In this document: one piece after another, positions 1 through 20,247 of the stretch
Numbering within the stretch: the first letter of the stretch is position 1
How the letters are laid out: each line of letters begins with the position of its first letter
IMG/VR virus record: IMGVR_UViG_3300030328_004086
Location: 1-21,726 of that record
Reading direction: 5' to 3' (one strand)
Source: a virus
DNA length: 21,726 bases
Notes under the pieces: model-generated
Database searches by the model: none
Told to the model about the DNA's origin: nothing
The model's input: only the letters and a program-made list of their open reading frames with translations
Position numbers and translations under genes: made by a program

Positions 1-3000
1 GTGCAGATGATGACAGATATTTGTTGGAAAGTAATTTCTCTCAAATAAAGGAAAAAGTTGAAAGAATTACTACTCAAGTATCAATTTCAACCTTGACACC
101 ACATAATTTAAAATCTAATGATATCATATCATTATCAGTAGAACCTAATTTAACTGTAGGTATTGGTACCTCAGTTAGTGTATCAGTTGAAAGACAATCA
201 AATACTGGGTTTATTTTAATAAATCCTATAGGATTTAGTTCTTCGGGAATTAATACTTTAACAAATGAAATAACAATAGATTCTCATGGATTAAAAACTG
301 GAGATAAAATAACATATTCTGCTGATGAAAATGCATCAGGATTAACTACAGGAAATTATTATGTATATAAAGTTGATGAAGATAATATAAAATTCTGTAA
401 TACATTAGTAGATGCACAATCTAATCCACCATTAAGTGTTGGAGTAGGTACTACTATTGGTGGAAATTCTCAATTAATATCATTAATAAATCCACAACTT
501 AACATAATTAAAACTAATAGTTTAGTATTTGATTTATCACATTCTTCTCTTGAGGATTATAAATTTAAATTATATTATGATAAAGAATTTAAGAATGAAT
601 TTGTTTCTGTTGCATCTACTACATTTAATATTGTTAGTGTAGGAACTATTGGTGTTTCTACAAATGCTACTATTACTTTAGATTATAATATCAATTTGCC
701 AGATAATTTATACTACAATCTTGAAAAGTCTGGAGGAATTAGTACTACAGATAAAGAAGTATTGAATTATTCGGAAATAAATTTAATACCAAGTTTATAT
801 AATTCAAACTATAAGATTATTGGTGTTGGAGTTGGTAATACTAATTTTGATATTTCATTATCAAGTTTACCAGAAAAATTATCCTATGACCAATCTGAAT
901 GCAATTCATTATCATATAATACAAATGCTTTGAATGAAAATGGTGGTATTGATAAAGTTAATATTATTTCTTCTGGTGTTAACTATAAAAAACTTCCAGT
1001 ATTTGTAGGATCTTCATCTACTGAAGGTAGTGGAGCTTTAATCGTTGCTCAATCTCAAAACGTTGGTAATGCAAATAAAGTAAGAATTATTAATGAAGGG
1101 TTTGAATATTCTTCAGATAAAACCTTAAAACCAAAGGCATATATATCACCACTTATTATAATTAATAATTCCAATACAATAGGAGTAGTGACTATTACTG
1201 ATGGTGGTGATGGATATTTAAATGCTCCTAATATATCTATTATTAATTCAACTACACGTGAAAAAATTAATAGTGGGTTGTTGGAAAGTAAGTTATCAGG
1301 ATCTTCAATATCTCATATTGATATTACAGTTTTACCAAAGGGTCTTCCTGATATTCCAGTAGAATTATTTACTTATAACAATAGTAATGGTATTGGAATA
1401 CAAACTGTACAATCAAATTCAACTGGAATATTTACATGTTGGATTACTACACCTTCTACAGGATTTACAATATCACCGTTTGATGTTGATGATGAGGTAT
1501 TTATTGAAGGTATTACTAGAGTCGGTACTGCAGGATCTGGATTTAATAGTGAAGATTATGGATATAAGTTTGGTAAAGTAATTGATGTAATTGCTGGTCT
1601 TTCTACAGGTATAACTATTGATCTTAGTGGTATTTCAGACAATACTGGAATAGCAGTTACAAATCAAAATTCTTTAGCTACAATTATCAATAAAAAGAAT
1701 TATCCAACATTCGACGTATCTTTAAAACCATCTAAATTTATTATTGGTGAAAAAATAATAACTAATAAGATTGAAAGAGATTTAAGTGTTACAACTTCTG
1801 AAAATGATTCAATTAAGGTTTCTGGAACTTACACTTTAAATGTTGGAGATACTATTCTTGGAAAAAATTCAGGAACTTTAGCATCTATTGTTAGTATTAC
1901 TAATAATTTGGGTGAATATGATGTAAGTTTTTCTGTTAAGAAAGATATTGGTTGGAGTGATGATATTGGTAAACTGGATTTAGATACTCAGGTAACTCCA
2001 GATAATGATTATTATCAAAATTTATCATATACAATTAAGAGTTCACAAACATTTGAACAGTTAAGAAGTCCAGTATCTTCTCTTCTTCATACAAGTGGAT
2101 TAAAGAATTTTGCAGATCTTGGAATTACATCAGTTACTTCTAATGTAGGCGTAAGTACTGATGTTGTAGATTCATTTAATACAATTATAAATCTTAGTGG
2201 AGAAAATCGTGTTGATACAATTAATAATTATGACACAGCTGTAGATTTAAGTACTGATAATATAACCTCTAAATTTGTAAAATTTGATAGTAAGGTACTT
2301 TCAAATTATCTTCAAGCTACAAGTAATCAAGTTATATCAATTGATAATATTAATAAACAGTTTTCAAATTTAGAAACATCTCCATTAGAATATTTGGATT
2401 TCTTTGAAATAGAAGATAATACTACATTTTCAAATTTATTATTGAGAGTAAGTAATATAGATTCTACTGATATTCAATCAACAGAATTGGTGATATTGAA
2501 TAATGGATCATCAATTATTTTGTTGAATAAGGATATGATGAATGATGAAAATCATGCTGGTATTGGTAGTTTTATTATTGATAGTTCTCTTGATGCTACT
2601 TACTTAAGATTTTTCCCACTACCAAATGCATATGATTATGATTATGATATTAAAGTTATCGACACTTCATTTAAACAAAATTCTGGAATAGGAACAGAAT
2701 CTATAGGATTTATTGATCTTATAGGAACAGTTGGTATAGCTACTACTTCTACAAATTCTGGAGTAACAACTACTTCAATAGTATCTTTAGATAAAGAAAA
2801 TTATTCTTCAATATATGCAGAAAATCAATTAATTAATAGATCTACTAATGAAATGAATTATGTTGAATTATATACTACTCATGATAATAGTGATACTTAT
2901 ATTTCCGAATATTTTGTAGATACGCATAATCAAGTTAGTGGATACTCTGATACTATGATGGGATCTTTTAATGGAATTATTGACGGATCTTTATTTACTC

Positions 3001-6000
3001 TAAATTATGAGAATGATTTATCTGATAAAGTAGAATTTAGATCCAACATTGTTGGTTTTGGTACTACAACTGTTGGTATACAAACTTATAGATTTAAAAC
3101 AATAGGTCAACCTGATGGGACAGAAAGATCTGCGTTATATCAATCAAATTATAATGTTGGTGTTGGAATAACTGATGTAGTTGCTTTAGATTCACAATTA
3201 TTTAATTTTGTTAAATCTACTGTAGAAGTTAGTACTGGTTCTACTAAAGCATTGTATAAGGTGTCTATGACACATAATTATTCTGATACTTTCGTACAAA
3301 TAGGACCATTTCTTTCAATTAATACAGGTATAGCACAAACTGGTATTGGAACATTTGGTGGACAATATGATGCTAATAATTTTATATTAAAATTCTATCC
3401 TGATGATGCATATAATGCTGACAGTATTCAAGTATCCTCATTAAATAAAATATTCTATACTGATATGGATGATGATAATGTTGATATAATAGAGGATTTG
3501 GAATATGGAAAGGTTACTACTAATATTGATAATTATTATTACAATGCAATCAATGGTGAAAGAATTAATAGGAAGAACTTTACTTTAACAGAAAATAATA
3601 TACCTATTTTTGCTAAACATTTTAATCCAGATTCATCTGTTGGAGTTGTTAGTTATACTACTGGATTATTTTCTATAGACGATCATTTCTTTAGAACTGG
3701 GGAAGAATTGATTTATACACCGAAGTCTACATTTGTTGGTATCGGTTCTACAGCAATGCAATATTCTGGGGGAGCTGGAACAAAATTATTACCTTCATCG
3801 GTATTTGCTATTAGGAATGATAAAGATAGTTTTTATCTCTCTACAACTAGAGCAGATGCAGATGCAGGAACATCTATTACCTTTGTCAATCCAGGAGAAG
3901 GAAATTCTCATGAATTAGCAATGAAATTAAGTAATACTAAATCTGTTATTACAATCAATAATATAATTCAACCACCTTTAGCATATGTACCTATAAGTTA
4001 TACATTAGAGAATAATGGAGATTCTATTTTAGGTAGTACAGGTATTAATACTACAAGAACATTCTTTACTTTAAGTGGTATATCTTCAATCAATCCTTCT
4101 GATATATTGAAGATAGATGATGAATATATGAATATTATTAATGTAGGATTTGGAACTACAACTACAGGTCCAATTACTGGTGCTGGTACATCAACGTTAA
4201 TTGAAGTTGAAAGAGGATTTGTTGGTACATCTGCTACTGCTCATATTAATTCATCTACAGTTAATTTGTATCGTGGTGCATTTAATATAGTTGGTGAAGA
4301 AATACATTTTACAAACGCACCTAGAGGATCTGTATCTAGAGGATTGAACGAAAGTAATCTGGAATGGGCCAGATCAGATTTTAGTGGAAGAGTATTCTTT
4401 AGAAATAATTATGATACAAACCAAATATATGATAATATCTCTGAAGAATTTACAGGAATTGGTCAAACCTTTAATATAACAGTTGGAGGTGCAAATACTG
4501 CAGGAATAGGTACTACTGGTGGAAGTGGATTGGTACTTGTTAATAGATTATATCAAAAACCATCAGCTCCAAATAATCCTTCTAATAATTATCAATTTAC
4601 TGATGATATAGATGCTGGTATAACCACTATCACATTTAGTGGTATTAGAACTGATACTGGAGATATTTTTGTCAGTGATAGTGATGTTAATCAAAATGAA
4701 TTGCCAAGAGGTGGTGTAATAGTATCTTTAGGATCTACACCAGGTTTAGGATATGCACCTTTAGTTGGAGCGATAGGTTACCTTGAACAAACTAATGGAG
4801 TTGTTGATAAGGTTGTAAGTACTGCTTCTACTGGAGCTCCCAATTCAATAACTACTGCATCTTATAATAATGAAACTGGTGTGTTAGAGATTCAAACAGA
4901 AGGTGCTCATAATTTTGAAGCAGGAATTGTAAATCAAGTTAAACTGGCAGGTCTTGAATTTACATGCAGTGGTTCATTCAATGTGTATGATGCTGCTTAT
5001 GATCAAACTACAGGTGACTTAGAATTAACTGTTGGTGATCATTATTTGGGAGCAGGTCAATATATTGAAATTAAAAATAATTCATTAAATTTCAAGTGTG
5101 AGGGGGATAATTATGTAGGACTTCATGCATATCCTCGTGCTGGAACAGATCCTATTGCAGGAATACCTACGGCAATTAATTCTACTTCTAATAGTACAAT
5201 TACTATCAATGTTGGTGTTGGTACTACAAATCCCCATGTGTTTGTTCCTGATACGGGTATCCATAAATTTGTTTCTGCTGGTATTAATTCTATTACTGCT
5301 GATACTACTGCTCAATTTACAGCAGCAACAGGCACAGAATATAATCCTATAACTGGAGATCTTGTTCTTGAAATTGGATCTCATACATTAGATACAAGTA
5401 ATACTATTACAATGACTGATGATGCTATCACCTTTACTTGTGATGCTGATAGTCATGCTACTGAACATAAGTACCCAAGAGCTACTGACCCTGCATCTGG
5501 ACAAACATTGGCAATTACCAATCCAACTTCTACAACTATTACTGTTAATGTTGGTGCCGTTCAAGGTGTTGGTGCCGTTATTGTTAGAAGTGGATATTCT
5601 GGTACCACAAATACTATCTTCCCATATGCTGTTGTTGGATTAGGAAGCACAAGTTATGATTATTCTGTTATTAGTGTTGGATCTACTAACATCTTCACAA
5701 CTAAGGTTGGAGTAAATTCTATACCACACACTTATGTTGGTGGTGGTAGTGTTATGCCTTGGTATGGTAATGCTAATTCGGGTTCTGGTTATTTAGATTC
5801 AAATGTTTCTATAGGAGTTACTGATATTGCATATGACCATAAGTTTATTAGTGCTACAAATACTTCAATTAATGGATCCATTCAACCAAATAATGTAGTA
5901 TATGATCCTTATATAGGAACCTTAACATTATCAATACCTAATCATGGATTAAGTGGAACTCTTACAATAACTGATAATTCATTAACATTTACATGTTCTA

Positions 6001-8045
6001 AAGATAATCATGCTACAGAACATACTTATCCTAGATCTGGAATTGATCCTGCTTCAGGATCTAGTTTACCAATTACAGTAATTGATGATAATACACTTTC
6101 TGTTGATGTTGGATCATCCGTGGGTACAGGTGCTATTGTAAGTGGACAAGTTGGTTTAGGTGGTACTATAACATTTTCTCTTGATAATGGAGGATCTAAT
6201 TATAATAATCCACAATTAGTAGTTTCGCAACCAGTATATGAAAATATACCAATAGTTGGTGTTTCACGTTTAAGTTCAGGACAAACTACCGATTGTGGAA
6301 CAGGTCTTTTACTCAATCTTGATGTTGGAGCAGCTTCTACAGTAGGTGTGGGATCAACATTATTTGCAATTAATGATTTTAAAATTGCTAGAAATGGTTA
6401 TGGATTTAAACGTGGTGATGTATTTAAACCAGTTGGATTAATAACAGATAAAAGTTTAAGTTCTCCATTAGAAAGTGTTGAATTTACTGTGTTAGATTCT
6501 TATTCAGATTCATTTGCTGCTTGGGAATTTGGTCAATTTGATTATATTGATTCTATTAAAAATCTTCAGGATGGACAAGAAACAAGATTTGAATTGCGGT
6601 ATAATGAGCAATTATTAAGTTTTGAAGAACCAGATTCAAATTCATATAATGTCAAACTTGAAAATTGTTTATTCATAATAATAAATGGAGTTATTCAAAT
6701 ACCAGGTAAAGATTATCAATTTAGTGGTGGTACTTCATTTGTATTTTCATCACCACCAAGAACTGTAGATGATGTAGCTATATTCTTCTATAGAGGAACA
6801 TCTGGTCTAGATACTCAATTAATAACCAATATAAGACCTTCAATAAAAACTGGGGATTTAATTAAATTAGTTAATTTAAAATCCCAACAAATTGGTATAT
6901 CATCCACTAAAAATCAGAAAAATAGAACAATTACCAGTATTAAATATTCAGATGTTGTAGAAACTGATTTATATAAAGGACCAGGAATTAGTAGTGAATC
7001 TAAAGCTTTAAATTGGACTAAACAAAAAGTGGATAAAATAATTGATGGTGATATTGTTTATAAATCTAGGGATAGTTTACAAACAATGATATTCCCAACA
7101 TCTAAGATTATTGATAGTATAACAACTACAAATAATGAAATATTTGTAGATAATGTTGATTTATTTGATTATGATAGTCCTACTAGTATTAGTGGATTGG
7201 TTATTGAAGGTAATAACCCTGTTGCTGCTGCTATAACTGCTGTAGTTTCTATTGCTGGTACCATTTCATCCCTTGATATTGTTAGTGGTGGTAGTGGTTA
7301 CGTAGGCACTACTACAGATATAATAATTGGATCTCCATATGGTGTTTCTGTTGGAGGAACATGGGGAAGAACTTATAATTCTCAATTAGGAATTTCTACT
7401 TTTGCCGAAGCAGTAGGTAATATTACTAATGGTTCAATTACTTCTGTTGATATTACAAATATAGGATTGGGATATACACAGACCTCTTCACCTAATGTCT
7501 TGGCACCTCTTCCAGAATTCAAGAAAGAATTAGTTTCTAATATAACAAATATTCAAGGTTTTTCTGGTATTGTAACAGGTATTGGTACAACTGCAGGTGT
7601 TGGTACAGATTTAGCATTAAAATTCCATTTACATGCATCAAATTATAATAATTTACTTGCAGGATATCCAATTTCTATATCTGATACTGAAATTGGAACT
7701 GGTGTAACTTCATTATATCCATCTGGAATAGGTATTGTAGGTATTGGTACAACATTCTTAAATAATGTTTATAGAATTGCCCAAATATCTCATACAGGAA
7801 ATTCTGGATTAGTGACATGTAATATTGAATCTCCATCAGATGCATTAGGAATAGGTACCAGTGGAAGTCAATTTGATCCTGTAGGAACTTTCTCTTGGGG
7901 TAGATTATCTGGTGCTTCTATTAGATCATCTTCTCCAATTTCTATTGGAGTTACAGGATTGACAATTGATGCTGGTTTAACAACTTTCCCAACAATTACA
8001 AGACGTGGGGTAGGATTGAGAGATACAGGATCTATTGATGCTTAA
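1..8045 (+). CDS. Giant mosaic virion structural protein, probable baseplate component in the gene 7 position (5' end outside window)
   Basis: The reading frame is open from the first complete codon (position 3, reading ADDDRYLLES) to TAA at 8043-8045, so the gene starts upstream; the TTG at 21 is not a credible start. At least 2680 residues are present. The protein is almost all beta-type sequence with many G(I/V)G(T/S)(T/S) motifs. Modules in order: HGLKTGDKITY lead-in (about 285); three GxGY-type strands (957-1250); SGT segment (1840-1960); a YYQNLSYTIKSS...LLHTSGL segment (2001-2126); second lead-in HFFRTGEELIY (3684); IDDEYM...ERGFVGT segment (4017-4330); FTC/HxYPR repeats (4863-6135); NGVIQIPGKDYQF segment (6684-6800); more GxGY strands (7271-7508); and a C-terminal tail ending RRGVGLRDTGSIDA, a type I recall from cyanophage virion proteins. 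It lies directly upstream of gp8, as gene 7 does in T4, but I see no clear similarity to T4 gp7 (1032 residues). Baseplate or wedge-periphery location is inferred. Confidence 0.85.
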   Translation, partial: ADDDRYLLESNFSQIKEKVERITTQVSISTLTPHNLKSNDIISLSVEPNLTVGIGTSVSVSVERQSNTGFILINPIGFSSSGINTLTNEITIDSHGLKTGDKITYSADENASGLTTGNYYVYKVDEDNIKFCNTLVDAQSNPPLSVGVGTTIGGNSQLISLINPQLNIIKTNSLVFDLSHSSLEDYKFKLYYDKEFKNEFVSVASTTFNIVSVGTIGVSTNATITLDYNINLPDNLYYNLEKSGGISTTDKEVLNYSEINLIPSLYNSNYKIIGVGVGNTNFDISLSSLPEKLSYDQSECNSLSYNTNALNENGGIDKVNIISSGVNYKKLPVFVGSSSTEGSGALIVAQSQNVGNANKVRIINEGFEYSSDKTLKPKAYISPLIIINNSNTIGVVTITDGGDGYLNAPNISIINSTTREKINSGLLESKLSGSSISHIDITVLPKGLPDIPVELFTYNNSNGIGIQTVQSNSTGIFTCWITTPSTGFTISPFDVDDEVFIEGITRVGTAGSGFNSEDYGYKFGKVIDVIAGLSTGITIDLSGISDNTGIAVTNQNSLATIINKKNYPTFDVSLKPSKFIIGEKIITNKIERDLSVTTSENDSIKVSGTYTLNVGDTILGKNSGTLASIVSITNNLGEYDVSFSVKKDIGWSDDIGKLDLDTQVTPDNDYYQNLSYTIKSSQTFEQLRSPVSSLLHTSGLKNFADLGITSVTSNVGVSTDVVDSFNTIINLSGENRVDTINNYDTAVDLSTDNITSKFVKFDSKVLSNYLQATSNQVISIDNINKQFSNLETSPLEYLDFFEIEDNTTFSNLLLRVSNIDSTDIQSTELVILNNGSSIILLNKDMMNDENHAGIGSFIIDSSLDATYLRFFPLPNAYDYDYDIKVIDTSFKQNSGIGTESIGFIDLIGTVGIATTSTNSGVTTTSIVSLDKENYSSIYAENQLINRSTNEMNYVELYTTHDNSDTYISEYFVDTHNQVSGYSDTMMGSFNGIIDGSLFTLNYENDLSDKVEFRSNIVGFGTTTVGIQTYRFKTIGQPDGTERSALYQSNYNVGVGITDVVALDSQLFNFVKSTVEVSTGSTKALYKVSMTHNYSDTFVQIGPFLSINTGIAQTGIGTFGGQYDANNFILKFYPDDAYNADSIQVSSLNKIFYTDMDDDNVDIIEDLEYGKVTTNIDNYYYNAINGERINRKNFTLTENNIPIFAKHFNPDSSVGVVSYTTGLFSIDDHFFRTGEELIYTPKSTFVGIGSTAMQYSGGAGTKLLPSSVFAIRNDKDSFYLSTTRADADAGTSITFVNPGEGNSHELAMKLSNTKSVITINNIIQPPLAYVPISYTLENNGDSILGSTGINTTRTFFTLSGISSINPSDILKIDDEYMNIINVGFGTTTTGPITGAGTSTLIEVERGFVGTSATAHINSSTVNLYRGAFNIVGEEIHFTNAPRGSVSRGLNESNLEWARSDFSGRVFFRNNYDTNQIYDNISEEFTGIGQTFNITVGGANTAGIGTTGGSGLVLVNRLYQKPSAPNNPSNNYQFTDDIDAGITTITFSGIRTDTGDIFVSDSDVNQNELPRGGVIVSLGSTPGLGYAPLVGAIGYLEQTNGVVDKVVSTASTGAPNSITTASYNNETGVLEIQTEGAHNFEAGIVNQVKLAGLEFTCSGSFNVYDAAYDQTTGDLELTVGDHYLGAGQYIEIKNNSLNFKCEGDNYVGLHAYPRAGTDPIAGIPTAINSTSNSTITINVGVGTTNPHVFVPDTGIHKFVSAGINSITADTTAQFTAATGTEYNPITGDLVLEIGSHTLDTSNTITMTDDAITFTCDADSHATEHKYPRATDPASGQTLAITNPTSTTITVNVGAVQGVGAVIVRSGYSGTTNTIFPYAVVGLGSTSYDYSVISVGSTNIFTTKVGVNSIPHTYVGGGSVMPWYGNANSGSGYLDSNVSIGVTDIAYDHKFISATNTSINGSIQPNNVVYDPYIGTLTLSIPNHGLSGTLTITDNSLTFTCSKDNHATEHTYPRSGIDPASGSSLPITVIDDNTLSVDVGSSVGTGAIVSGQVGLGGTITFSLDNGGSNYNNPQLVVSQPVYENIPIVGVSRLSSGQTTDCGTGLLLNLDVGAASTVGVGSTLFAINDFKIARNGYGFKRGDVFKPVGLITDKSLSSPLESVEFTVLDSYSDSFAAWEFGQFDYIDSIKNLQDGQETRFELRYNEQLLSFEEPDSNSYNVKLENCLFIIINGVIQIPGKDYQFSGGTSFVFSSPPRTVDDVAIFFYRGTSGLDTQLITNIRPSIKTGDLIKLVNLKSQQIGISSTKNQKNRTITSIKYSDVVETDLYKGPGISSESKALNWTKQKVDKIIDGDIVYKSRDSLQTMIFPTSKIIDSITTTNNEIFVDNVDLFDYDSPTSISGLVIEGNNPVAAAITAVVSIAGTISSLDIVSGGSGYVGTTTDIIIGSPYGVSVGGTWGRTYNSQLGISTFAEAVGNITNGSITSVDITNIGLGYTQTSSPNVLAPLPEFKKELVSNITNIQGFSGIVTGIGTTAGVGTDLALKFHLHASNYNNLLAGYPISISDTEIGTGVTSLYPSGIGIVGIGTTFLNNVYRIAQISHTGNSGLVTCNIESPSDALGIGTSGSQFDPVGTFSWGRLSGASIRSSSPISIGVTGLTIDAGLTTFPTITRRGVGLRDTGSIDA
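4863..6135 (+). repeat. Array of four diverged FTC/HxYPR protein repeats inside the giant structural gene
   Basis: Repeat units begin with Y(N/D)xxTG(D/V)L at 4863, 4998, 5340 and 5901. The last two are clearest: a short HxL lead-in, then a strand ending FTC, then HATEH(K/T)YPR, then DPASG and a closing strand TI/LxVxVG. The second unit has FKC and HAYPR; the first is degenerate and stops soon after FTC. DNA-level identity is poor with many synonymous changes, so the array is old. The unit type is familiar to me from marine phage tail proteins; its function is unknown. Confidence 0.8.
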
Positions 8046-8065
8046 TATCATTTTTCATAAACTAT

Positions 8066-8073: not shown

Positions 8074-8091
8074 TCTAAAAAAACTATTAAT

Positions 8092-9684
8092 ATGTCTGCC
8101 GTCGTTACAGATCAATTTAGAATATTCAATGCAGGTAATTTTGTAGATTCCGTATTAGACAATAATAATTCTTATTATGTCTTTTTAGGTTTAACTAATC
8201 CTACAACACCTAATCCTGGATTTGGAAGAACTTCTGATTGGGATTCAAATACACCACTACAACCTACTGATAATTTTCAATATGAATCTCAGTATCGAAG
8301 TACTTCTCTTTTTGGTAAGAAGATTAATAGTACAAATATAAGAAGAGTTATTAGAAAGGTTGATTGGGTTGCTAATACTCCCTATGATATGTATAGGCAG
8401 GATTACAGTCTTCCAAATAATAAAGCACCCAATTCAAAAACTGGAAGATTATATGATGCAAATTATTATATTGTTAACAGTGATTATAATGTTTATATTT
8501 GTATAGATAATGGTTCTTTCGGAGCTCCTAATAGTCCAAGTGCTAAAGGTGGCAATTCCCAAAGCGAACCAACATTTACAGATTTAGAACCATCTGTTGC
8601 TGGAGATGGTGCAGATGGATACGTTTGGAAATATTTGTTTACTATATCACCTAGCGATATAGTTAAATTTGATTCGACTGAATATATTGTTGTTCCTAAT
8701 AATTGGTCTACATCTACAAATTCTCAGATTGAGAATATTAGAGAATCTGGTGATTCTGAAATAAATTTCAACCAGATTAAAAAGATATATATTGAAAATG
8801 AAGGTTCTGGATATTTAAATAATACTCTTAATTTAGATATATTAGGTGATGGTAGTGGTGGAAAGGTATCTGTAACAACTGAGGGTGGTAAAATTAAGTC
8901 TGCAATTGTTACTTCTGGTGGAAGAGGGTATACTTATGGTATTGTTGATTTGGGACCGTTACAACCCCAATCTGGCCCGACTATAGATGCAAAATTAATT
9001 CCTATTATTCCACCTTCAAGAGGTCATGGTTATGATATCTACAAGGAATTAGGTGCGGATAGAGTATTAATATATTCTAGATTTGATGATTCTACGAAAG
9101 ATTTTCCAATCAATACAAAATTTGCACAGGTTGGTATTATTAAAAATCCATCAACAGCTACTTCTATAGGATCTACATTTAATGAGAATCAGTTTTCATC
9201 ATTAAACTCTATTAAGTTTAATGCTAGTGATGTTAGTACATGGGCAGCTAAACCTTCTTTAGGATCTAAAATAGAGCAAACAAATTCTAACGGAGATGTT
9301 GCAAAAGGATATGTGGCATCATATGATGAAAATACAGCAGTCTTAAAGTTTTATCAAGATAGATCTTTATATTTTGGAAATAATGTAGATCAGACTGATT
9401 ATGTTGGTGTAACTACTAATAGTAATGTTGTTGCATTTTCTGGAAGTGGTAGTGTTAAATTTGCAGGAGGGGTTCCAAGTGATACATCTCCAGCTATTGC
9501 ATTTACTGGTCGCACTATGTCTGATGGTGATAGAGAAATTGATTTAGGTGTGTATTTCAACAGTGGGTTCTCCAATTCAGAGATAAATAAAACTACTGGA
9601 GATATCATATACATTGATAATCGAAAGTCAGTTACTAGAGATATTCGACAGAAAGAAGACATTAAAATCATCTTGGAATTTTAA
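8092..9684 (+). CDS. gp8: Baseplate wedge protein gp8, enlarged
   Basis: This 530-residue protein matches the T4 gp8 pattern at several separated points. GDGADGYVWKYLF is at residues 171-183, EYIVVPNNW at about 197-205, a PINTKFAQVGIIKNP segment at about 339-353, and the C-terminal end has IIYIDNR followed by the closing strand IKIILEF. In T4, gp8 (334 residues) is a dimer in each baseplate wedge that binds gp7, gp10 and gp6. About 200 residues are added here. One insertion (about 225-300) carries two GxGY strands (ENEGSGYL, TSGGRGYT); the other (about 385-440) has GDVAKGYVASYDENTAVLKF. The ATG at 8092 follows TATAAATA by 18 bases and has no visible Shine-Dalgarno sequence. The next gene starts 6 bases after its stop. 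Confidence 0.88.
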   Translation: MSAVVTDQFRIFNAGNFVDSVLDNNNSYYVFLGLTNPTTPNPGFGRTSDWDSNTPLQPTDNFQYESQYRSTSLFGKKINSTNIRRVIRKVDWVANTPYDMYRQDYSLPNNKAPNSKTGRLYDANYYIVNSDYNVYICIDNGSFGAPNSPSAKGGNSQSEPTFTDLEPSVAGDGADGYVWKYLFTISPSDIVKFDSTEYIVVPNNWSTSTNSQIENIRESGDSEINFNQIKKIYIENEGSGYLNNTLNLDILGDGSGGKVSVTTEGGKIKSAIVTSGGRGYTYGIVDLGPLQPQSGPTIDAKLIPIIPPSRGHGYDIYKELGADRVLIYSRFDDSTKDFPINTKFAQVGIIKNPSTATSIGSTFNENQFSSLNSIKFNASDVSTWAAKPSLGSKIEQTNSNGDVAKGYVASYDENTAVLKFYQDRSLYFGNNVDQTDYVGVTTNSNVVAFSGSGSVKFAGGVPSDTSPAIAFTGRTMSDGDREIDLGVYFNSGFSNSEINKTTGDIIYIDNRKSVTRDIRQKEDIKIILEF

Positions 9685-12600: not shown

Positions 12601-15600
12601 AATAATTCAACAGTACCTTCAAAAAGATTACTAATAGTATATGATGCTTATAGTGTTCCATCTAATGATAGTGGTGATGTCTTTAGTGTATTGAGTTATG
12701 ATAAAAATAGATATACCGACGATATACCCAATATAGGTGTATCTAATATTAGGGCATCAGATACTCTAGATTTTAGACCTAGAGTGGAAGCACATACTGA
12801 TGTTAATACATCTCCATTTGCATTTGCTTCTAGAACTACTTCATTTAATAGTGCTCCTAAATTTTTATTATCAGCTAATGAGGGATCTTTAGTTGGATAT
12901 GAGTATTATTTGGGAAGAATTGATAAACTATATTTAAGTAAGTATGGAGTTTTACAACTAGTAAAAGGACAATCATCACAATCACCTATAGCTCCCGAAA
13001 ATATCAATGATTCTATGGAGTTGGCGACAATTACTCTACCTCCATATCTTTATAATCCAAAGAACGTGAAAATTAGTTTGGTTGATAATAGAAGATATAC
13101 TATGAGAGATATTGGTGATTTAGAAGATAGAATTGAGAATTTGGAATCTATAACAACACTATCTTTGCTTGAAGTTTCTACAGAATCTTTAACAATACAA
13201 GATGCATCAGGTAATAATAGATTTAAGAGTGGATTTTTTGTTGATGATTTCAGTAACGATAGTTTTATTGATTTTAATTTAAGTTCTATAGAAGTAGATG
13301 GTCGGAATAATGAAATAAGACCAATTATTGGTAGTAATAGCATTAAACCACAATTAATGTCTTCTACAAATATTATTGATAGTGAATTTGATTCTGGTAC
13401 AAATTATGAATTATTAGATTCAAACGTACAAAAAACAGGAAATGCTGTTACATTAAAATATGAAGATAAAGATTGGCTTGAGCAAGTTTATGCAACTAGG
13501 GTGGAAAATGTTAATCCTTTCCATGTTATTTCTTATAGTGGAGTTGTTGTATTAAGTCCAAGTCGTGATACTTGGGAAAGAACTATTAGACTTCCTGAAA
13601 AAATAATAAATGAAAGTGTTTTGAATAATGTTGAAGTCAGACGAAATGTTCAGAGTAATCAAGAAAGAAGTGCTGGTAATTTAGTCGAATGGTCTACAGA
13701 AGTAGATACTGCTGTAAATACATCAGTAAGAAGTAGAGATATTATAGTTGATAGTGGTAATGAACAATATATGAGATCAAGAAATACTCAATTTTTTGGA
13801 TCTGCTTTAAAACCTGAATTTAGATATTACCAATTTTTAGATGGAAATTCGGATGTAGATTTTATTCCTAAATTAATAGAAATTGCACCTAATAATTCAT
13901 TAACACAATATGGTTCCAATGGAACATTTGAAGTTGGAGAAACCGTAAATGGGTATTACAATGGTGAGAAAATTATTGATTTTAGATTAGCAAAATCAAA
14001 TCATAAAACAGGAGCATTTAATAGTCCAGATCTTACATATAGAACAAATCCATATCTTCCTCAAGAACTTTTACAAAGTGAATATACAAGTTCTTCAAAG
14101 GTATTGAATGTTGATACTCTTGCACTTTCTAATGAAGCACAAGGGTTGTATAGTGGATATATTGTTCAAGGTACTAAGTTGGTTGGACAAAGAACTGGTG
14201 CTATTGCGTATGTTAAAGAGTTAAGATTAATTAGTGATCAATATGGAGATTTGGTAGGGAGTTTCTTTATAAGAAATCCTTATGTAGATCCTCAACCAAG
14301 TGTTTTAATTGAAACTGGAACTAAAACTTATAAATTAACTAGTAGTAGTACTGATGCAAAACCTTTAAAGGGAAGTACATTAATTTCATCTGGAATTACA
14401 GAGTATATAACTGCTGGTACATTTATTAAAAGACAAGTAAGAACAACAGTTACAGAAACCACAACAGTTACAACTACTGTTACCAGAACACAATTTAGAG
14501 AAGAAGATAATGGTGATCCTTTGGCACAATCATTTACGGTTGCTGGTAATATAGAAGCACCAGATGTTACTGGTGATTTAACAGATGATCAACATGGTGT
14601 TTTTATAACTGCTGTAGATTTATTCTTTGCTAATAAAGATAGTGGAAATGCTCCATTAACAGTTGATATTAGAACGGTTGAATTGGGAACACCAACTTTA
14701 ATTTCTGTAGGCCCATCTGTTACTTTGAGACCTCAAGATATTGTGACTTCAACTACTGGTGATCTTGCTACTAATGTAAGGTTCCCTGAACCAATTTATT
14801 TGCCACCTGGTAGAGAGTATGCAATTGTTCTTCTTTCACCTAATAGTAATGAATATGAAGTATGGGTTGCGAGAATGGGTGAAGATGTAGTGAACTTACA
14901 AAGTCTTCCTGATGTATCAGCAATACAGTACAATCAGCAATGGGCTTTAGGTAGTTTATTTAAATCACAGAATGGTTCCATATGGACCGCAAGTCAATTT
15001 GAAGATCTGAAGTTTAAATTGTATAAAGCTAATTTTACTGCTAATAGTGGTACTGCATATTTTGCAAATCCATCTTTAAGTAAGAGTAATAATTACATAG
15101 AAAACCTTCAGAGAGATTCAATTATTACTTTACCTAGAACTGGATGGGTAGGAATTAGTACTATTACTACTGGTATTAGCACATTCTCTGCTGGAAGAAG
15201 AATTTTAGGATCTACCAATAATTATGTCACTGCACATATTTCAGATACAGGTTCAAAAGCCAATCTTGTTTCAGTAAAAGCAAGTGGATCTAATTATAGT
15301 GTACAAAGTGGCACTATAGTTAATACTTATAGTATTATTGGAAATGGTGGTGATGACCTTAAACTTAATATAGATGTTGCAAGTAGTGGAGCAATAACAG
15401 TTAACTCTATTGTAACGCCTGGTAATGGATTTAAGCCAGGAGATGTGGTTGGTATTGTAACTGCAGATACTACAGGAAATTGTGGTAATGGTGCTTTAAT
15501 AAATATTGAATCTATTATTGGACTTGATAGATTATATTTAACTGATATTCAAGGCACATCTGCTACTGGTGGATTTACCGAAGATGAAGCATTTAGATAT

Positions 15601-17001
15601 TATGATGACAATGATGTCATACATACACCTGTTATAACATATAGAACTAATTTACAATTAGATGGTACTCCATTTGATGGAAAACATTTTAAAGTTAATC
15701 AATTTGATCATGGAATGTATGCTAAAAATAATCAGTTAATTTTAAGTGGTATTGAAGGTAATTATGTTCCTACTACAATTTCTAATAATGTTACTGTAAC
15801 AGAAAATTCTACAATTAGTGTTGGATCTACAAGTCAATTTATAACTTTTGAAGGAGTACCTGTAGGTGTTGGTAGTACTGGATATGTTAAGTTAGGTGAA
15901 GAAATTATTGGATATGAAAGTTATGGAGCAGGAACTCTCGAAACTCTTACAAGGGGTGTAGACAGTACTCTTCAGATATCACATGAATCTGGAGATGAAT
16001 TGCAAAAGTATGAACTTGATGGAGTATCTCTTAGAAGAATTAATACTAATCATGATATTTCTGATTATAATATAGATCTTGATAGTTATTATATTGGTAT
16101 TAGTACCTTAGTCAAAGGATCCAATAGATCTAGTGATACATCTGATGGTCCTGAATTATCATTTACTAATGGAGGATTTTATGGAGGTGATACTTCATAT
16201 GCTACCCGCAATATACAATTTGAAAATATAACACCACTGATTGATATATTTACACCATCCACAGTTACCACGACTTCTGGTTCTGTAAGAACTGTAAGTG
16301 GTACTAGTGTTGGTGGAAATGAAACTTCCTTTGTTGATAAGGGTTATCAACCAATACAATTAAATACGAAAAATCAATTAGATTCACCAAGACTTATATG
16401 TTCTAAAGTAAATGAAAATGAATATTTAGATAATATTCAAAGAAATAAATCTCTTACTTTAGGAGTGAATTTAGAAACAGAAAATAGTAATGTATCTCCT
16501 ATAATATACATAGATACTATTAATATTTTAGAGTTAGATACTAATAGGATTAATAATCCAGTTTCTAATTATAGTGATAATGCACTTACGAAATCATCTT
16601 TATATGATCCACATAGTGCAGTTTATGTTTCTAAAATTGTTTCTTTGAATAAACCTGCAGATAGTTTAAAGGTAATTTTAAGTGCTTATAGAAATTCTTC
16701 ATCTAATTTTAGGGTTCTTTATTCTTTAATAAGACCTGATTCTAGTGAAATTGATCAATCCTTTGAATTCTTCCCAGGATATGATAATTTAAATAATGGA
16801 GTTGTTAAAGATTCTACTAAAAATAGTGGATTGCCAGATGTATTTGTTCCAGCTAGTTTGGATAATCAATTCTTAGAGTATCAATTTACTGCTGATGCCT
16901 TAGGAGAATTTAGTGGATATCAAATTAAAATAGTGATGTCAGGAACAAATCAAGCATATCCAGTAAGAATAAAAGAACTTAGGACTATTGCTATTAAATG
17001 A
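9691..17001 (+). CDS. Giant DUF4815-type virion structural protein, probable baseplate or tail-fibre component
   Basis: This 2436-residue protein lies between gp8 and gp13, the place of T4 genes 9-12. The N-terminus (YYDDFDPNNNFYKVLFKPGY, then QARELTTLQSILQNQIENFG) is typical of DUF4815 phage proteins. Other recognisable parts are YFIRGTFV...LPSYRVGLTI (about residue 190-225), GGEAYVKGYDV (about 355), GQRDQYYDYSRLIR (about 956), and a short helix RRYTMRDIGDLEDRIENLE (about 1135-1155). Next come a Thr-rich linker (about 1583-1600), a DPLAQSF domain from about 1609, GxGY strands (about 1860-1920), an FDHGMYAKNN lead-in (15709), an RG-type segment (15811-16043) and a C-terminal beta domain ending IKELRTIAIK. 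SGA segments occur at 9976 and 11131. I see no similarity to T4 gp9, gp10, gp11 or gp12, so a role in joining baseplate to fibres is inferred from position. No clear Shine-Dalgarno sequence precedes the ATG. Confidence 0.88.
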   Translation: MAQSKDLNISPYYDDFDPNNNFYKVLFKPGYPVQARELTTLQSILQNQIENFGSHIFKEGSIVIPGAPTYQVSDAVKLNSLQFGVDISLYVNDLKGKIVEGATSGVTATVDLIVLPDDNEVEYTTLYVKYINGGSENFSRDKFIDGESLLIKENLVYGNTTINAGTAVVTLISSDATAVGSSASVAEGVYFIRGTFVTVEQQTIILDYYNNLPSYRVGLTISEEIITAKEDPSLYDNAKGFSNYAAPGANRLKISLILSKKLLSDKNDQNFFEILRVDNGDKLKIVTKTDYNIIKDWIAERTYEESGNYSIDDFDISANNSLNNRLGNGGIYFSNQKTAEDNTPSDDLMCVKVSGGEAYVKGYDVTTDTVNILDVDKPRDTEKVTTTTVDFELGNELVINNVKGQPKFREVVDLYDAVLNSSQAAVGNIIGKARIYSVNPKGSTYTGASNEWDLRLYDVQTYTNITVDVAVNSTEVPDTAFIKGLSSGASGYAISGGSGTSISLIQTSGSFLLNEQISVNGIPISRSIDSITAYGAGDILSVKQDQLTVAFTADVSLIDIPLANGIVEGTISGGNTLKSGRPFAGLKAGNVISYYSGQTTPTYIKVSSISSDALTVTIAGMGQDVDNVYDGSVVNGTFPINLAVSNFIRQDGASSGLYEVLPRPNIAAVDFSSSNLSLSGQIILSGSGTVSGTAATVSVNDFKDAGGVGISSAFFDTFDISRYSVHYGTTGIAPSGIGTVTSDSFTLLDDGGGSVGSRARFTGLIDTDDNTVINVTAKKQGIQSKIKSYQRSQIRDIIYSNTERSGSGISTSINDGLTYNANAYGLRVQDEEISLNVPDVVKILSVYESIGGGQPTFDTLTFPSTANVGSDAIIGENIIGQISNAIARVVTNNTSTPSSGGSNKLGIVYLNDRTFIKNEQVLLQESNINTEIEAINSAESDGKYQNITQSFTLDKGQRDQYYDYSRLIRNNNSTVPSKRLLIVYDAYSVPSNDSGDVFSVLSYDKNRYTDDIPNIGVSNIRASDTLDFRPRVEAHTDVNTSPFAFASRTTSFNSAPKFLLSANEGSLVGYEYYLGRIDKLYLSKYGVLQLVKGQSSQSPIAPENINDSMELATITLPPYLYNPKNVKISLVDNRRYTMRDIGDLEDRIENLESITTLSLLEVSTESLTIQDASGNNRFKSGFFVDDFSNDSFIDFNLSSIEVDGRNNEIRPIIGSNSIKPQLMSSTNIIDSEFDSGTNYELLDSNVQKTGNAVTLKYEDKDWLEQVYATRVENVNPFHVISYSGVVVLSPSRDTWERTIRLPEKIINESVLNNVEVRRNVQSNQERSAGNLVEWSTEVDTAVNTSVRSRDIIVDSGNEQYMRSRNTQFFGSALKPEFRYYQFLDGNSDVDFIPKLIEIAPNNSLTQYGSNGTFEVGETVNGYYNGEKIIDFRLAKSNHKTGAFNSPDLTYRTNPYLPQELLQSEYTSSSKVLNVDTLALSNEAQGLYSGYIVQGTKLVGQRTGAIAYVKELRLISDQYGDLVGSFFIRNPYVDPQPSVLIETGTKTYKLTSSSTDAKPLKGSTLISSGITEYITAGTFIKRQVRTTVTETTTVTTTVTRTQFREEDNGDPLAQSFTVAGNIEAPDVTGDLTDDQHGVFITAVDLFFANKDSGNAPLTVDIRTVELGTPTLISVGPSVTLRPQDIVTSTTGDLATNVRFPEPIYLPPGREYAIVLLSPNSNEYEVWVARMGEDVVNLQSLPDVSAIQYNQQWALGSLFKSQNGSIWTASQFEDLKFKLYKANFTANSGTAYFANPSLSKSNNYIENLQRDSIITLPRTGWVGISTITTGISTFSAGRRILGSTNNYVTAHISDTGSKANLVSVKASGSNYSVQSGTIVNTYSIIGNGGDDLKLNIDVASSGAITVNSIVTPGNGFKPGDVVGIVTADTTGNCGNGALINIESIIGLDRLYLTDIQGTSATGGFTEDEAFRYYDDNDVIHTPVITYRTNLQLDGTPFDGKHFKVNQFDHGMYAKNNQLILSGIEGNYVPTTISNNVTVTENSTISVGSTSQFITFEGVPVGVGSTGYVKLGEEIIGYESYGAGTLETLTRGVDSTLQISHESGDELQKYELDGVSLRRINTNHDISDYNIDLDSYYIGISTLVKGSNRSSDTSDGPELSFTNGGFYGGDTSYATRNIQFENITPLIDIFTPSTVTTTSGSVRTVSGTSVGGNETSFVDKGYQPIQLNTKNQLDSPRLICSKVNENEYLDNIQRNKSLTLGVNLETENSNVSPIIYIDTINILELDTNRINNPVSNYSDNALTKSSLYDPHSAVYVSKIVSLNKPADSLKVILSAYRNSSSNFRVLYSLIRPDSSEIDQSFEFFPGYDNLNNGVVKDSTKNSGLPDVFVPASLDNQFLEYQFTADALGEFSGYQIKIVMSGTNQAYPVRIKELRTIAIK
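14443..14472 (+). repeat. 12-base direct repeat encoding a Thr-rich linker
   Basis: ACAACAGTTACA occurs at 14443-14454 and again at 14461-14472, 18 bases apart, which is six codons. It encodes TTVTETTTVTTTVTRT just before the DPLAQSF domain of the DUF4815 giant. The in-frame period suggests duplication of a six-residue unit in a flexible interdomain linker. Confidence 0.7.
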
Positions 17002-17195
17002 TTAGAGTTAAAGGTTATCCTCATTTATATCGTGATGAAAATACTGGTGCTATTATAAATCATAGCCATCAGGATTACAATTCTCGTTTACAAACTATTT
17101 CAAATTCTGAAAAAGAAAAAAATGAATTGAAAAGAATGAGGGATGATATTGATGAATTGAAGGATCTTATTAAACAATTATTAGTTAATAGGTAG
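16998..17195 (+). CDS. Small coiled-coil phage protein
   Basis: This is a 65-residue protein whose ATG overlaps the stop of the giant gene (ATGA, 4 bases), which implies translational coupling. A weak AGGA lies 13 bases upstream. The N-terminal half reads IRVKGYPHLYRDENTGAIIN, a pattern I recall from small proteins in T4-like phage structural regions. The C-terminal half (EKEKNELKRM, then DDIDELKDLIKQLL) has hydrophobic residues in heptad spacing and should form a helical coiled coil. Its function is not established. It could be a minor virion or assembly component that oligomerises through the coil. It is the last gene before the second late promoter. Confidence 0.82.
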   Translation: MIRVKGYPHLYRDENTGAIINHSHQDYNSRLQTISNSEKEKNELKRMRDDIDELKDLIKQLLVNR

Positions 17196-17202
17196 GTAAG
17201 GA

Positions 17203-17210
17203 TATAAATA
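17203..17210 (+). promoter_or_regulatory. T4-type late promoter TATAAATA upstream of the neck/packaging block
   Basis: An exact TATAAATA octamer lies in the 41-base gap between the coiled-coil gene and the Ig-like gene, 26 bases before its ATG. It would give a leader of roughly 20 bases containing TAGGG and AATGAGAA but no strong Shine-Dalgarno sequence. It should drive the small structural genes and gp13 to gp17. Besides 8066, this is the only exact copy I found on the + strand by eye. Confidence 0.8.
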
Positions 17211-17236
17211 ACAAGTAGGGATTCTAATGAGAATAC

Positions 17237-17578
17237 ATGGCTGCCGTATATGTTAGTAATCTTGTAATCAATACAGGAAGTACTTTTTCCCAAACTTTCA
17301 CTTTGGAAGCAACTGATACCAATTCACCTATGAACTTAACAGGATATACTGTTGCTTCTCAGATGAGGAAATGGGCTGGTGCTTCAAAGGCGACTAATTT
17401 TCAGGCTGAGATAGGATCTCCTACCACAGACGGAAAAATAACTCTTGGACTGGGATCAACTGTGACTACAGATTTGAAACCAGGTAGATATGTATATGAT
17501 GTAGTAGTTGATATATCAGGTACAAAAGAAACAGTTGTTGAAGGAGCTGTTATCGTAAGAGAAGGAGTAACTCGATAA
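17237..17578 (+). CDS. Small beta-sandwich (Ig-like) virion protein
   Basis: This 113-residue protein has the pattern INTGSTFSQTFTL, then MNLTGYTVASQMRK, then a strand pair around GKITLGL, then LKPGRYVYDVVV and a closing strand ending VIVREGVTR. It resembles the small phage domain with 'LTGYT...A.iRk...GxYvYDv' that occurs in baseplate or tail-periphery proteins such as the N-terminal part of BppU-type proteins. It is probably an all-beta virion component, though the exact site is not visible. It is the first gene after the second late promoter, and its stop overlaps the next start by one base (TAATG). No cysteine, signal peptide or membrane segment is present. Confidence 0.82.
   Translation: MAAVYVSNLVINTGSTFSQTFTLEATDTNSPMNLTGYTVASQMRKWAGASKATNFQAEIGSPTTDGKITLGLGSTVTTDLKPGRYVYDVVVDISGTKETVVEGAVIVREGVTR
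17562..17567 (+). promoter_or_regulatory. Ribosome binding site for the fibre-like gene
   Basis: AAGGAG lies inside the end of the Ig-like gene, 10 bases before the ATG at 17578. It supports that start. Confidence 0.65.
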
Positions 17579-17955
17579 TGCCAGATATTAAAGTTAGAGT
17601 TGGTCAACAAAATGCGATAAAGGTATTATCATCTACCGCAGCTGGTAATGCACTTAAGGCAGATTATGCTACTATAGCTAAAAATGTTATTGGTGGAATA
17701 TCTTCAGTATCACAATCATATGTTTCTGGAATTACCACTTTTGTTGGAATTACCACAACTTTAACTGATTTTTATGTTGGTGGGAATCTGTATGTAAGTA
17801 ATGATTTAACATTTGATGAGTTTAATGCTAGAAATGCAAATATAACTGGTATTGCAACAGTCAATTATTTAAATATTACTGGTATTGTAACTGCCACAAC
17901 TGCTAATATTACTGGCACATTAACTGCTGGATTAATCGATGGAGGATCGTACTGA
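17578..17955 (+). CDS. Fibre-like structural protein in the wac position
   Basis: This is a 125-residue protein. The N-terminus (PDIKVRVGQQNAIKVLSS) is followed by an Ala/Ser/Gly-rich segment. A run of short fibre-type strands ends the chain: ITTFVGITTTLTDFYVGGNLYVSNDLTF is the middle part, then ANITGIATVNYLNITGIVTA, then TANITGTLTAG. The NITG(I/T) unit recurs three times at 10-14 residue spacing, as in trimeric beta-helical or triple-stranded phage fibres. It lies directly before gp13, where T4 has wac (whisker fibritin), but it lacks the long coiled coil of fibritin and is far shorter than its roughly 490 residues. A trimeric fibre or collar ornament is inferred. The start is supported by AAGGAG, and both ends overlap neighbours by one base. 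Confidence 0.82.
   Translation: MPDIKVRVGQQNAIKVLSSTAAGNALKADYATIAKNVIGGISSVSQSYVSGITTFVGITTTLTDFYVGGNLYVSNDLTFDEFNARNANITGIATVNYLNITGIVTATTANITGTLTAGLIDGGSY
17941..17945 (+). promoter_or_regulatory. Ribosome binding site for gp13
   Basis: GGAGG lies 9 bases before the gp13 ATG at 17955, within the last codons of the preceding gene. It is the best Shine-Dalgarno match in the window. Confidence 0.72.
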
Positions 17956-18797
17956 TGGCAAAACCAACAACTAGAGAGGAATTTAAGAGTTATTGTCTTA
18001 GACAGTTAGGAGCTCCTGTTTTAGAGGTTAATGTTGATGATGATCAGGTAGAAGATTTAGTTGATGATGCTTTACAACTTTTCAATGAACGTCATTTTGA
18101 TGGTGTTGAGAGAATGTATTTAAAACATAAAGTTACTCAGGATGATATTGATAGAGGAAAAGCTTCAGGAACAACAGGAGTTGGTATTGTAACTACTACA
18201 GCAACTGCTAATGTAAGTGGATTGGGTACTATAACTTCTAATTATTATGAAAATTCTAATTTTATACAAGTTCCCGATTCTGTAATTGGTGTAGAAAAGA
18301 TATTTAAGTTTGATAGTAGTACAATATCTGGTAGTATGTTTAGTATAAAATATCAGTTATTTTTAAATGATTTGTATAATTTCAATTCTATTGATTTGTT
18401 ACAATATTCTATGGTAAAGACTTATTTGGAAGATATTGATTTTCTTTTAACTACTGATAAGCAAATTAGATTTAATCAAAGACAGGATAGATTATATTTA
18501 GATATTGATTGGAAAGCAGAAACAGCAGGTACATATTTTATTATTGATTGCTATAGAGCATTAGATCCTACTTCATTTACTGGTGTATGGAATGATTCAT
18601 TTTTAAAAAGATATGCAACCGCATTGATTAAAAGACAATGGGGGATGAATCTTATTAAATTTAGAGGAGTTAAGTTACCTGGTGGAATTGAATTTAATGG
18701 TAGAGAAATATATGATGATGGGCAAAGAGAGTTAGATGAACTAAGAGAAAAAATGTTTTCCGAATATGAGTTACCTCCTCTTGATATGATAGGATAA
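17955..18797 (+). CDS. gp13: Neck protein gp13 (head completion)
   Basis: This 280-residue protein matches T4 gp13 (309 residues). The N-terminal helix set (REEFKSYCLRQLGAPVLEVN, then DDQVEDLVDDALQLFNERHF) and the C-terminal part (PGGIEFNGREIYDDGQRELD, then YELPPLDMIG) are typical. In T4, gp13 and gp14 form the neck that seals the DNA-filled head and receives the tail. A short Thr/Gly-rich stretch at about residues 72-95 (GVGIVTTTATANVSGLG) resembles the fibre-type sequence of the gene before it and probably forms a loop. The start follows GGAGG by 9 bases and overlaps the previous stop (TGATG). gp14 starts 4 bases after its stop. Confidence 0.93.
   Translation: MAKPTTREEFKSYCLRQLGAPVLEVNVDDDQVEDLVDDALQLFNERHFDGVERMYLKHKVTQDDIDRGKASGTTGVGIVTTTATANVSGLGTITSNYYENSNFIQVPDSVIGVEKIFKFDSSTISGSMFSIKYQLFLNDLYNFNSIDLLQYSMVKTYLEDIDFLLTTDKQIRFNQRQDRLYLDIDWKAETAGTYFIIDCYRALDPTSFTGVWNDSFLKRYATALIKRQWGMNLIKFRGVKLPGGIEFNGREIYDDGQRELDELREKMFSEYELPPLDMIG
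18791..18794 (+). promoter_or_regulatory. Ribosome binding site for gp14
   Basis: AGGA at the end of gp13 lies 7 bases before the gp14 ATG at 18802. Confidence 0.5.
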
Positions 18798-18801
18798 AAA
18801 T

Positions 18802-20247
18802 ATGGCATTAAATCCATTTTTCTTAAAAGGTTCTCAAGGTGAACAAAGACTCGTTCAAGACTTAATTAATGAACAATTAAGTATGTATGGTATTGAGGTA
18901 ATTTATTTACCACGTAAAATTGTTAATAAAGATAATATTTTTAGAGAAGTTGAAGCTTCTAAATTTAATGACAATTTCTCTATAGAAGCATATGTAAACA
19001 CCTATGAAGGTTATACAGGTGCTGGTGACATTATGACTAAATTTGGGATGAGTCTTAAGGATGATTTAGTAGTAACAATATCAAGAGAAAGGTGGGAAGA
19101 TTTTATAGGATCTTTTTTAGGTGCTTTACCTGCAGATGAAATTGAAGTTGCAAGTAGACCCAGTGAAGGAGATTTAATATATTTTCCATTAGGTGAAAGA
19201 ATTTTTGAAGTAAAATTTGTTGAGCATGAAAAACCATTTTATCAACTTGGTAAAAATTATGTTTATGAATTGCAGTGTGAATTATTTGAACTTGAAGATG
19301 AAGTTGGTGGATGGGATAATATTAGTACTGGAACGGAGCAAATTGATGATGCTTTGATCGATTATGGTTACATGACTTCATTGAAGTTAGTTTCAGTTGG
19401 TTCAACAGCAACTGTTGCCATCACTACAAGTACTGGATATATTAGAAATATTACATTAAATAATGATGGATATGATTATACAATTCCACCTATTGTTTCT
19501 ATATCAACTTCTCCCACTGGATTATCAGGAGATAATGCAACTGCAGTTGCAATAACAACTTCTATTGGTAATTCATATTCTGTCAAAGAGATATTATTAA
19601 CTCATGCTGGTGTTGGATATACAGTAGCACCTACTGTTACTATTGTTAGTGCTGCAACAACGGCAGTATCTGGTATCACAACATATCATGGAGTTGGAGC
19701 TGCTGCAACAGCAACAATTGTTACTGATGATGCTGGTATTAGAGTTGTTAGTATTGCAAATAGTGGTAGTGGATATACTGTTGAACCTGAAATTTATTTT
19801 AAGGCACCTCCAAGTGGAATAGGAACTGCTGTGGCTAGAACTAAGATTAATTCTGATAATAATGTTACTGATATATACATTGTTAATGCTGGTATTGGAT
19901 ACACTGTAAGTGGAATTGGACCAGGAATAGCTACAATTGCAAGTCCTCCAGTAATAGCAGGTGTGGGAACTTATCAATTTAATGAAGTAGTTATTGGTTC
20001 TGTTTCGGGTGCTAAGGGTAGAGTTAAGAGTTATGATCAAGATGATAATATCCTTAAACTTGGAACTACTGATGGTACTTTTGTGGCAGGTGATATTATT
20101 ATTGGAGCTGGATCTTCTGCACAATATGGTGTGGACTATATAATTGAAGCAGAATTTAGTGATAAATATGATCAGAGTGATGAAATAGAGAAAGAAGCAG
20201 ATGCTATTCTTGACTTCACTGAATCAAATCCATTTGGTAACTTTTAA
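18802..20247 (+). CDS. gp14: Neck protein gp14 with a large repeat insertion
   Basis: This 481-residue protein compares with 256 in T4. The first 185 or so residues are the conserved gp14 domain: MALNPFFLKGSQGEQRLVQD, IEVIYLPRKIVNKDNIFREV, then GAGDIMTKFGMSL and a stretch ending YELQCELFELEDE. The end (ILDFTESNPFGNF) is also typical. Between them, about residues 195-450 hold four GxGY-type repeats (GYDYTIPP, GVGYTVAP, GSGYTVEP, GIGYTVSG) spaced 42-52 residues apart, then an SGAKGRVKSYDQDDNILKLG segment. The protein joins gp13 at the head-tail junction. The insertion should project from the neck as a beta-rich decoration, perhaps a collar; this is inferred. The AGGA 7 bases upstream supports the start. 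The stop overlaps the gp15 start (TAATG). Confidence 0.92.
   Translation: MALNPFFLKGSQGEQRLVQDLINEQLSMYGIEVIYLPRKIVNKDNIFREVEASKFNDNFSIEAYVNTYEGYTGAGDIMTKFGMSLKDDLVVTISRERWEDFIGSFLGALPADEIEVASRPSEGDLIYFPLGERIFEVKFVEHEKPFYQLGKNYVYELQCELFELEDEVGGWDNISTGTEQIDDALIDYGYMTSLKLVSVGSTATVAITTSTGYIRNITLNNDGYDYTIPPIVSISTSPTGLSGDNATAVAITTSIGNSYSVKEILLTHAGVGYTVAPTVTIVSAATTAVSGITTYHGVGAAATATIVTDDAGIRVVSIANSGSGYTVEPEIYFKAPPSGIGTAVARTKINSDNNVTDIYIVNAGIGYTVSGIGPGIATIASPPVIAGVGTYQFNEVVIGSVSGAKGRVKSYDQDDNILKLGTTDGTFVAGDIIIGAGSSAQYGVDYIIEAEFSDKYDQSDEIEKEADAILDFTESNPFGNF
19444..19922 (+). repeat. Four GxGYT protein repeats within gp14
   Basis: Units are centred on GYDYT (about 19469), GVGYT (19609), GSGYT (19765) and GIGYT (19891). 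Each has the form hydrophobic strand, N/H-x-G, GY(T), then P-x-(V/I) strand. The DNA is diverged between units. The same unit occurs in gp8 and both giants. Confidence 0.78.

Follow-up and report, generated by a model that had tools for sequence, protein, structure and literature searches.

A GxGY beta-repeat unit in neck and baseplate proteins of T4-like marine phages

The GxGY unit is a small repeat of about 35-40 residues, in which a beta-hairpin of strands A and B, a tight turn at GxGY and a short third strand, C, are predicted. In a fragment of a T4-like marine phage, homologous units are carried by three virion proteins, namely gp14 of the neck and, in the baseplate, gp8 and the giant protein encoded at the gp7 position; a fourth, the DUF4815/VrlC giant, also of the baseplate, appears related to them only at the level of protein families. 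The unit is unnamed in the domain libraries scanned, and it connects neck and baseplate proteins of an abundant group of marine phages to bacterial surface proteins. The reading preferred here, with a probability of about 0.5, is that the unit serves as a portable beta-repeat scaffold, which makes virion proteins longer and whose linkers can take up other domains.

In the stretch of DNA analysed (21,726 nucleotides, here called the window), the genes are ordered as in Kyanoviridae like P-SSM2 or S-SRM01: gp7-position giant, gp8, DUF4815/VrlC giant, small ORFs, gp13, gp14, gp15 and gp16. The first giant of the original prediction is the C-terminal part (2680 aa) of the gp7-position protein, cut by the start of the window; gp7 of P-SSM2 has 5195 aa. 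Residues 3-162 of the window gp14 form its N-terminal core and belong to the T4_neck-protein family (PF11649, E 2.8e-30), and T4 neck structures are matched by this protein in a structure search. Residues 3-204 of the window gp8 belong to Phage-Gp8 (PF09215, E 3.4e-13).

The GxGY unit and its matches in the window

A unit profile was seeded with the four gp14 units of the window and refined only on 84 gp14 homologues (332 units); its consensus is GAAATATIVTSSGGISSILITNAGSGYTSAPTVTISSPP. In a second, family-level test, the gp14 units were compared by profile-profile (HH) methods with independent family alignments. The resulting map is given below in window coordinates, with scores of the gp14-only profile in bits and family-level values in per cent.

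933..998, + strand: gp7-position giant, unit 1 (aa 311-332), degenerate GVNY; 4.5 bits, within the shuffle range alone; 60.0%
1155..1250, + strand: gp7-position giant, unit 2 (aa 385-416), GDGYLNAP; 17.8 bits; 90.8%
6132..6242, + strand, approximate ends: gp7-position giant, unit 3 (about aa 2044-2080), GSNYNNP; 92.4%
6336..6416, + strand, approximate ends: gp7-position giant, possible unit 4 of the GxGYxxGD subtype (GYGFKRGD); 55%
7224..7337, + strand: gp7-position giant, C-terminal pair, first unit (aa 2408-2445), GSGY; 9.2 bits; 96.6%
7404..7496, + strand: gp7-position giant, C-terminal pair, second unit (aa 2468-2498), GLGY; 14.4 bits; 96.1%
8761..8814, + strand: gp8, unit 1 (aa 224-241), EGSGY; 11.5 bits; predicted strand-turn-strand, local pLDDT about 85-92
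8860..8934, + strand: gp8, unit 2 (aa 259-281), GGRGYT; 5.4 bits alone; 87.4%
15244..15309, + strand, approximate ends: DUF4815/VrlC giant, doubtful unit, GSNY; 9% only
15346..15432, + strand, approximate ends: DUF4815/VrlC giant, degenerate unit of the GxGYxxGD subtype (GNGFKPGD); no match in the window copy; 51.2% (E 1.5e-4)
19399..19515, + strand: gp14, unit 1; 46.4 bits (training set); predicted hairpin, turn and strand, pLDDT about 90
19540..19653, + strand: gp14, unit 2; 49.7 bits (training set); structure prediction
19696..19812, + strand: gp14, unit 3; 46.9 bits (training set); structure prediction
19822..19950, + strand: gp14, unit 4; 23.8 bits (training set); structure prediction
19969..20148, + strand: gp14, second beta module (GSVSGAKGRVKSYD...), predicted as a separate element after the array and before the C-terminal arm; modelled strands at aa 396-449
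20161..20244, + strand: gp14, conserved C-terminal arm, DFTESNPFG; common to T4-like gp14 proteins without the array

The GxGY motifs quoted in the original prediction are all present at the positions given there, and its list lacked the weak extra unit near 6336-6416. In the test that had been set beforehand, the gp14-only profile finds both the gp7-position giant and gp8 above background. The best of 100 local shuffles per protein reached 8.6 bits for the giant and 6.7 bits for gp8, and no match of at least 5 bits was obtained in the reversed window proteins. The 4.5-bit unit of the giant and the 5.4-bit unit of gp8 fall individually within the shuffle range and rest on the family-level test. 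The window copy of the DUF4815 protein was not matched by this profile (best score -2.4).

In the profile-profile comparison, 11 negative-control regions, including other parts of the same giants, gave at most 0.3%, and reversed alignments at most 1.3%. Thus, the original prediction of one module family in four virion proteins stands for gp14, the gp7-position giant and gp8, while DUF4815/VrlC joins them only at family level and is the weakest member. Some DUF4815 orthologues have clearer units at the 15346..15432 site, as in Bellamy (ITNGGSGY).

These controls also bear on convergence, according to which glycine-rich beta-turns would have come to resemble one another by chance or composition in low-complexity beta proteins. 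The motif is indeed short, and the host proteins are all rich in G, S, T, N and V; even so, this explanation is very improbable for gp14, the gp7-position protein and gp8, and less clearly so for DUF4815. No reversed match of at least 8 bits appeared in any set, shuffles remained below the main matches, and other regions of the same proteins stayed at the low level of the negative controls. Moreover, a plain BLAST search with the unit region of the window gp14 reaches gp7 of S-RIM8 (E 2e-4).

The structure models of gp14 and gp8, the two proteins modelled, show the same strand order in their units, a beta-hairpin, the GxGY turn and a short strand. The pLDDT of the units is mostly 82-95, and the overall confidence of the models is modest (pTM 0.53 and 0.56). 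In a structure search, nothing significant was found for the units beyond the T4-like gp14 and gp8 cores. In both the gp14 and the gp8 family, the G and Y residues hardly vary; G276, G277 and Y280 of gp8 unit 2 are invariant in 58 homologues. The second beta module of gp14 has weak similarity to the C-terminal half of gp8 (53.6%) and to a DUF4815 region (52.5%).

Small beta domains common to several virion proteins are a known kind of element. The Ig-like domains of tailed phages, for example, are promiscuous surface inserts in many virion proteins. Like them, the GxGY unit is a small beta element that sits as an insert in virion proteins unrelated to each other and is optional between relatives; it differs in its length of about 40 residues, its three predicted strands and its tandem use. 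No Ig-type Pfam match to the unit regions was found, and no Pfam or NCBIfam family covers the unit. Residues 200-372 of gp14 weakly match the virion and baseplate families phrog_701, 5342, 19630 and 438 of PHROGs, so that the resemblance is already implicit in that collection, although none of the four is defined as a GxGY unit. In the literature searched, no paper names the unit or describes its spread over neck, baseplate and bacterial proteins or the transfer of the LamG-like domain described below. Two further candidates were judged to be chance matches: DUF4223 on gp14 (E 0.0037), which is under the family cut-off, and GTPase-type solved structures as relatives of the tandem array (weak, E 0.013). 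Separately, a 125-aa small ORF at window 17578-17955 matches several baseplate-wedge PHROGs via a different repeat, of the TGIATV... type.

Insertion sites and order of gain in T4-like phages

The conserved cores of the window gp14 and gp8 belong to the families of T4 gp14 and gp8, whereas the T4 proteins have no GxGY units. In cyanophage gp14, the T4-like core is followed by the array and the second beta module, and these by the conserved C-terminal arm. Core and arm are found without the array in gp14 of pf16 (208 aa), phiM7 (217 aa), HTVC008M (290 aa) and T4 (256 aa), and since the arm is common to these proteins, the array is an internal insertion. For gp8, two units are inserted at a site that is a short stretch in T4. 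According to a preprint on the T4 neck, the C-terminal arm of gp14 touches gp15 (PMC12270204); in the window gp14 the array precedes this arm.

Among homologues from viral contigs and cyanophages, units were detected in all 51 gp7-type giants, in 61 of 90 gp8 proteins and in 8 of 78 DUF4815 proteins; none occurred in gp13 (0/81), in gp15 (0/82) or in reversed sequences. When 11 phage loci were scanned with the gp14-only profile (T4 included; 8 of the 11 outside profile training), the only matches were in gp14, the gp7-position protein, gp8, two DUF4815 orthologues and one tail-fibre-type ORF, with no unit in T4 or in reversed ORFs. A unit pair near the C-terminus of the gp7-position protein is present in eight of the ten cyanophages scanned. 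The gp7-position arrays can be expanded, with 16 units in syn9 and 19 in S-RIM8 (at least 8 bits each). In two gp7-position giants (L173:18784-37971 and L001:13006-28593), YHYH domains lie close to the GxGY units.

Outside the cyanophages, gp8 units are found in HTVC008M (23.0 bits), pf16 (27.5 bits) and phiM7 (9.2 bits), and gp7-position units in HTVC008M and phiM7. In a scan with the gp14 profile, gp14 of HTVC008M, pf16 and phiM7 contained no units, and neither phi-pp2 nor T4 had a unit in any protein, which bears out the original statement that the T4 homologues lack them. Units in gp14 were limited to cyanophages among the phages scanned, with two in syn9 and typically four. As the relatives outside the cyanophages, few in number, have gp8 or gp7-position units and a unit-free gp14, the array was probably gained by gp14 later than by gp8 and the gp7-position protein, within cyanophages.

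The original prediction proposed either exchange by recombination or selection for a common surface function. Units cluster by host protein, not by phage. The nearest neighbour of a unit is the same protein of another phage in 33 of 39 cases for gp14 (11.8 expected) and in 8 of 8 for gp8 (0.5 expected). If only units of other proteins are considered, the closest one belongs to the same phage in 11 of 117 cases, against 10.6 by chance. On the unit tree, which has 34 columns and from which only label counts were used, single branches being ignored, the protein label changes 21 times (44.5 when shuffled) and the phage label 96 times (87 when shuffled). Clustering by protein indicates that the spread was old and step-wise, with no sign of recent exchange within one phage.

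An ongoing recombination which exchanges units between the genes of one phage could draw on the BLAST link between the window gp14 units and S-RIM8 gp7, and on one clear recent transfer, in which a LamG-like domain passed between the gp15 of one phage and the gp14 of another. It is nevertheless highly unlikely, given that units of different proteins in the same phage are neighbours at chance level and that the phage label is unclustered on the tree. Recombination is accordingly not upheld for units between these genes, and is retained for the one domain carried between units. A common surface function of the unit-bearing proteins is plausible and remains putative.

Under the scaffold reading, gp8 and the gp7-position protein would have been the first to carry units, probably already in an ancestor common to other non-Straboviridae T4-like phages. 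In the cyanophages, gp14 would have acquired its array afterwards, at the junction of the T4-like core with the C-terminal arm, and the copies would then have descended with their host genes. If so, a testable order emerges in which T4-like phages gained extra virion parts, together with a candidate site for swaps of surface-type domains.

Bacterial copies and a LamG-like domain between units

A scan of the genome collection with the tandem array of S-RIM8 yielded 28 bacterial or archaeal loci. In 26 of them, the gp14-only profile detects one or more units in an ORF (8 bits or above), and no unit was found in the reversed ORFs of these loci. In four loci (L188:3920-4558, L198:2663-4540, L199:2684-4639 and L206:2774-4573), two GxGY units form an insert inside a SusD domain. 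SusD-like proteins are bacterial outer-membrane proteins for glycan uptake, unlike the virion proteins of phages; the unit pair is an internal insert in both. Lipoprotein-like bacterial proteins also contain units. On these matches, the GxGY unit is not phage-specific, being present in bacterial proteins that include surface proteins. At L195:3575-5062, in Brucella haematophila, a unit insert lies in an ORF that looks, on inspection of its sequence, like a prophage tail sheath protein; the name comes from that inspection, the ORF having no Pfam match.

The linkers between units can accept a further domain. The gp14 proteins of two uncultured phages, L049 and L209, have about 755 aa and six units, of which units 4 and 5 are separated by a LamG-like domain about 190 aa long (L049:11152-11719 and L209:5001-5570). 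The same domain is found in gp15 of the Pelagibacter phage Mosig EXVC030M (L207:6027-6593), also between GxGY units (10.6 and 28.7 bits). The name reflects a weak similarity to laminin LG (E 0.08), and the domain has no Pfam match.

Between the gp14 contigs and Mosig gp15, the domain has about 90% DNA identity over about 560 bases. By comparison, the proteins of L049 and Mosig are 42-48% identical for gp13, the gp14 core and gp15, and 61% identical for gp16. Between L049 and L209, nucleotide identity is 91% in the LamG-like domain and 72% in the flanking units. Because the domain is so much more alike than the neighbouring proteins and the units that flank it, the conclusion is a recent transfer of this domain between two kinds of neck protein in different phages, the boundaries of the domain falling in the linkers that join units. 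An exchange of the whole cassette between the gp14 genes of L049 and L209 is not claimed: with 86% identity between the gp13 proteins of these two, the insert they share may have been inherited vertically.

Putative role of the arrays

In the mechanism proposed here, tandem units, often in two or four copies, would form an insert that lengthens a virion protein, with tolerant linkers between the units. Any preference for these two numbers is an impression. The most likely job would be a structural one, namely to hold the array and any adjoining or inserted adhesion-type domains outside the neck and the baseplate. The outward position of the arrays, their scaffold role and their part in adhesion are what we infer from several sequence observations: the inserts in SusD-like proteins and in the Brucella ORF suggest portability, the LamG-like domain lies between units, and YHYH domains stand beside gp7-position arrays. 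Most gp14 arrays contain no extra domain, so that use as a scaffold is seen in few genomes.

A less probable possibility is that the units are themselves the binding surface, each repeat contacting a glycan or host ligand and several proteins having kept copies for avidity. This is consistent with the units in SusD-like outer-membrane and lipoprotein-like proteins and in baseplate proteins beside YHYH domains, as well as with an array of gp14 that seems to change faster than the core in one pair (48% vs 68% aa identity, L049/L209). On the other hand, the near-invariant G and Y fit a role in the fold and not a variable binding face, and gp14 is located at the neck, not at the tip. About equally improbable is an inert spacer or assembly aid, kept since the host proteins came to need the units for folding or contacts. 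The conservation of unit positions in orthologues over large divergence would be expected in that case, as would the many arrays without an adhesion-type domain; yet the LamG-like domain lies between units in three genomes, and bacterial surface proteins use the units as well.

The scaffold reading may be extended, more tentatively, to a docking scaffold common to phages and bacteria, in which adhesion-type domains would pass from protein to protein, and from phages of one host to those of another, via the inter-unit linkers. If true, this would provide a route for changing surface-binding parts without tail fibres.

The unit may also account for odd annotations. The gp7-position protein of HTVC008M (L172:33435-36485) is annotated as head closure Hc2, and the DUF4815 giant of P-TIM68 (L085:34840-42714) as putative neck protein; shared modules may have misled the annotation in both cases. 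In SynMITS9220M01, an ORF at the tail-fibre position (L089:46430-49903) contains two GxGY units of 24-25 bits.
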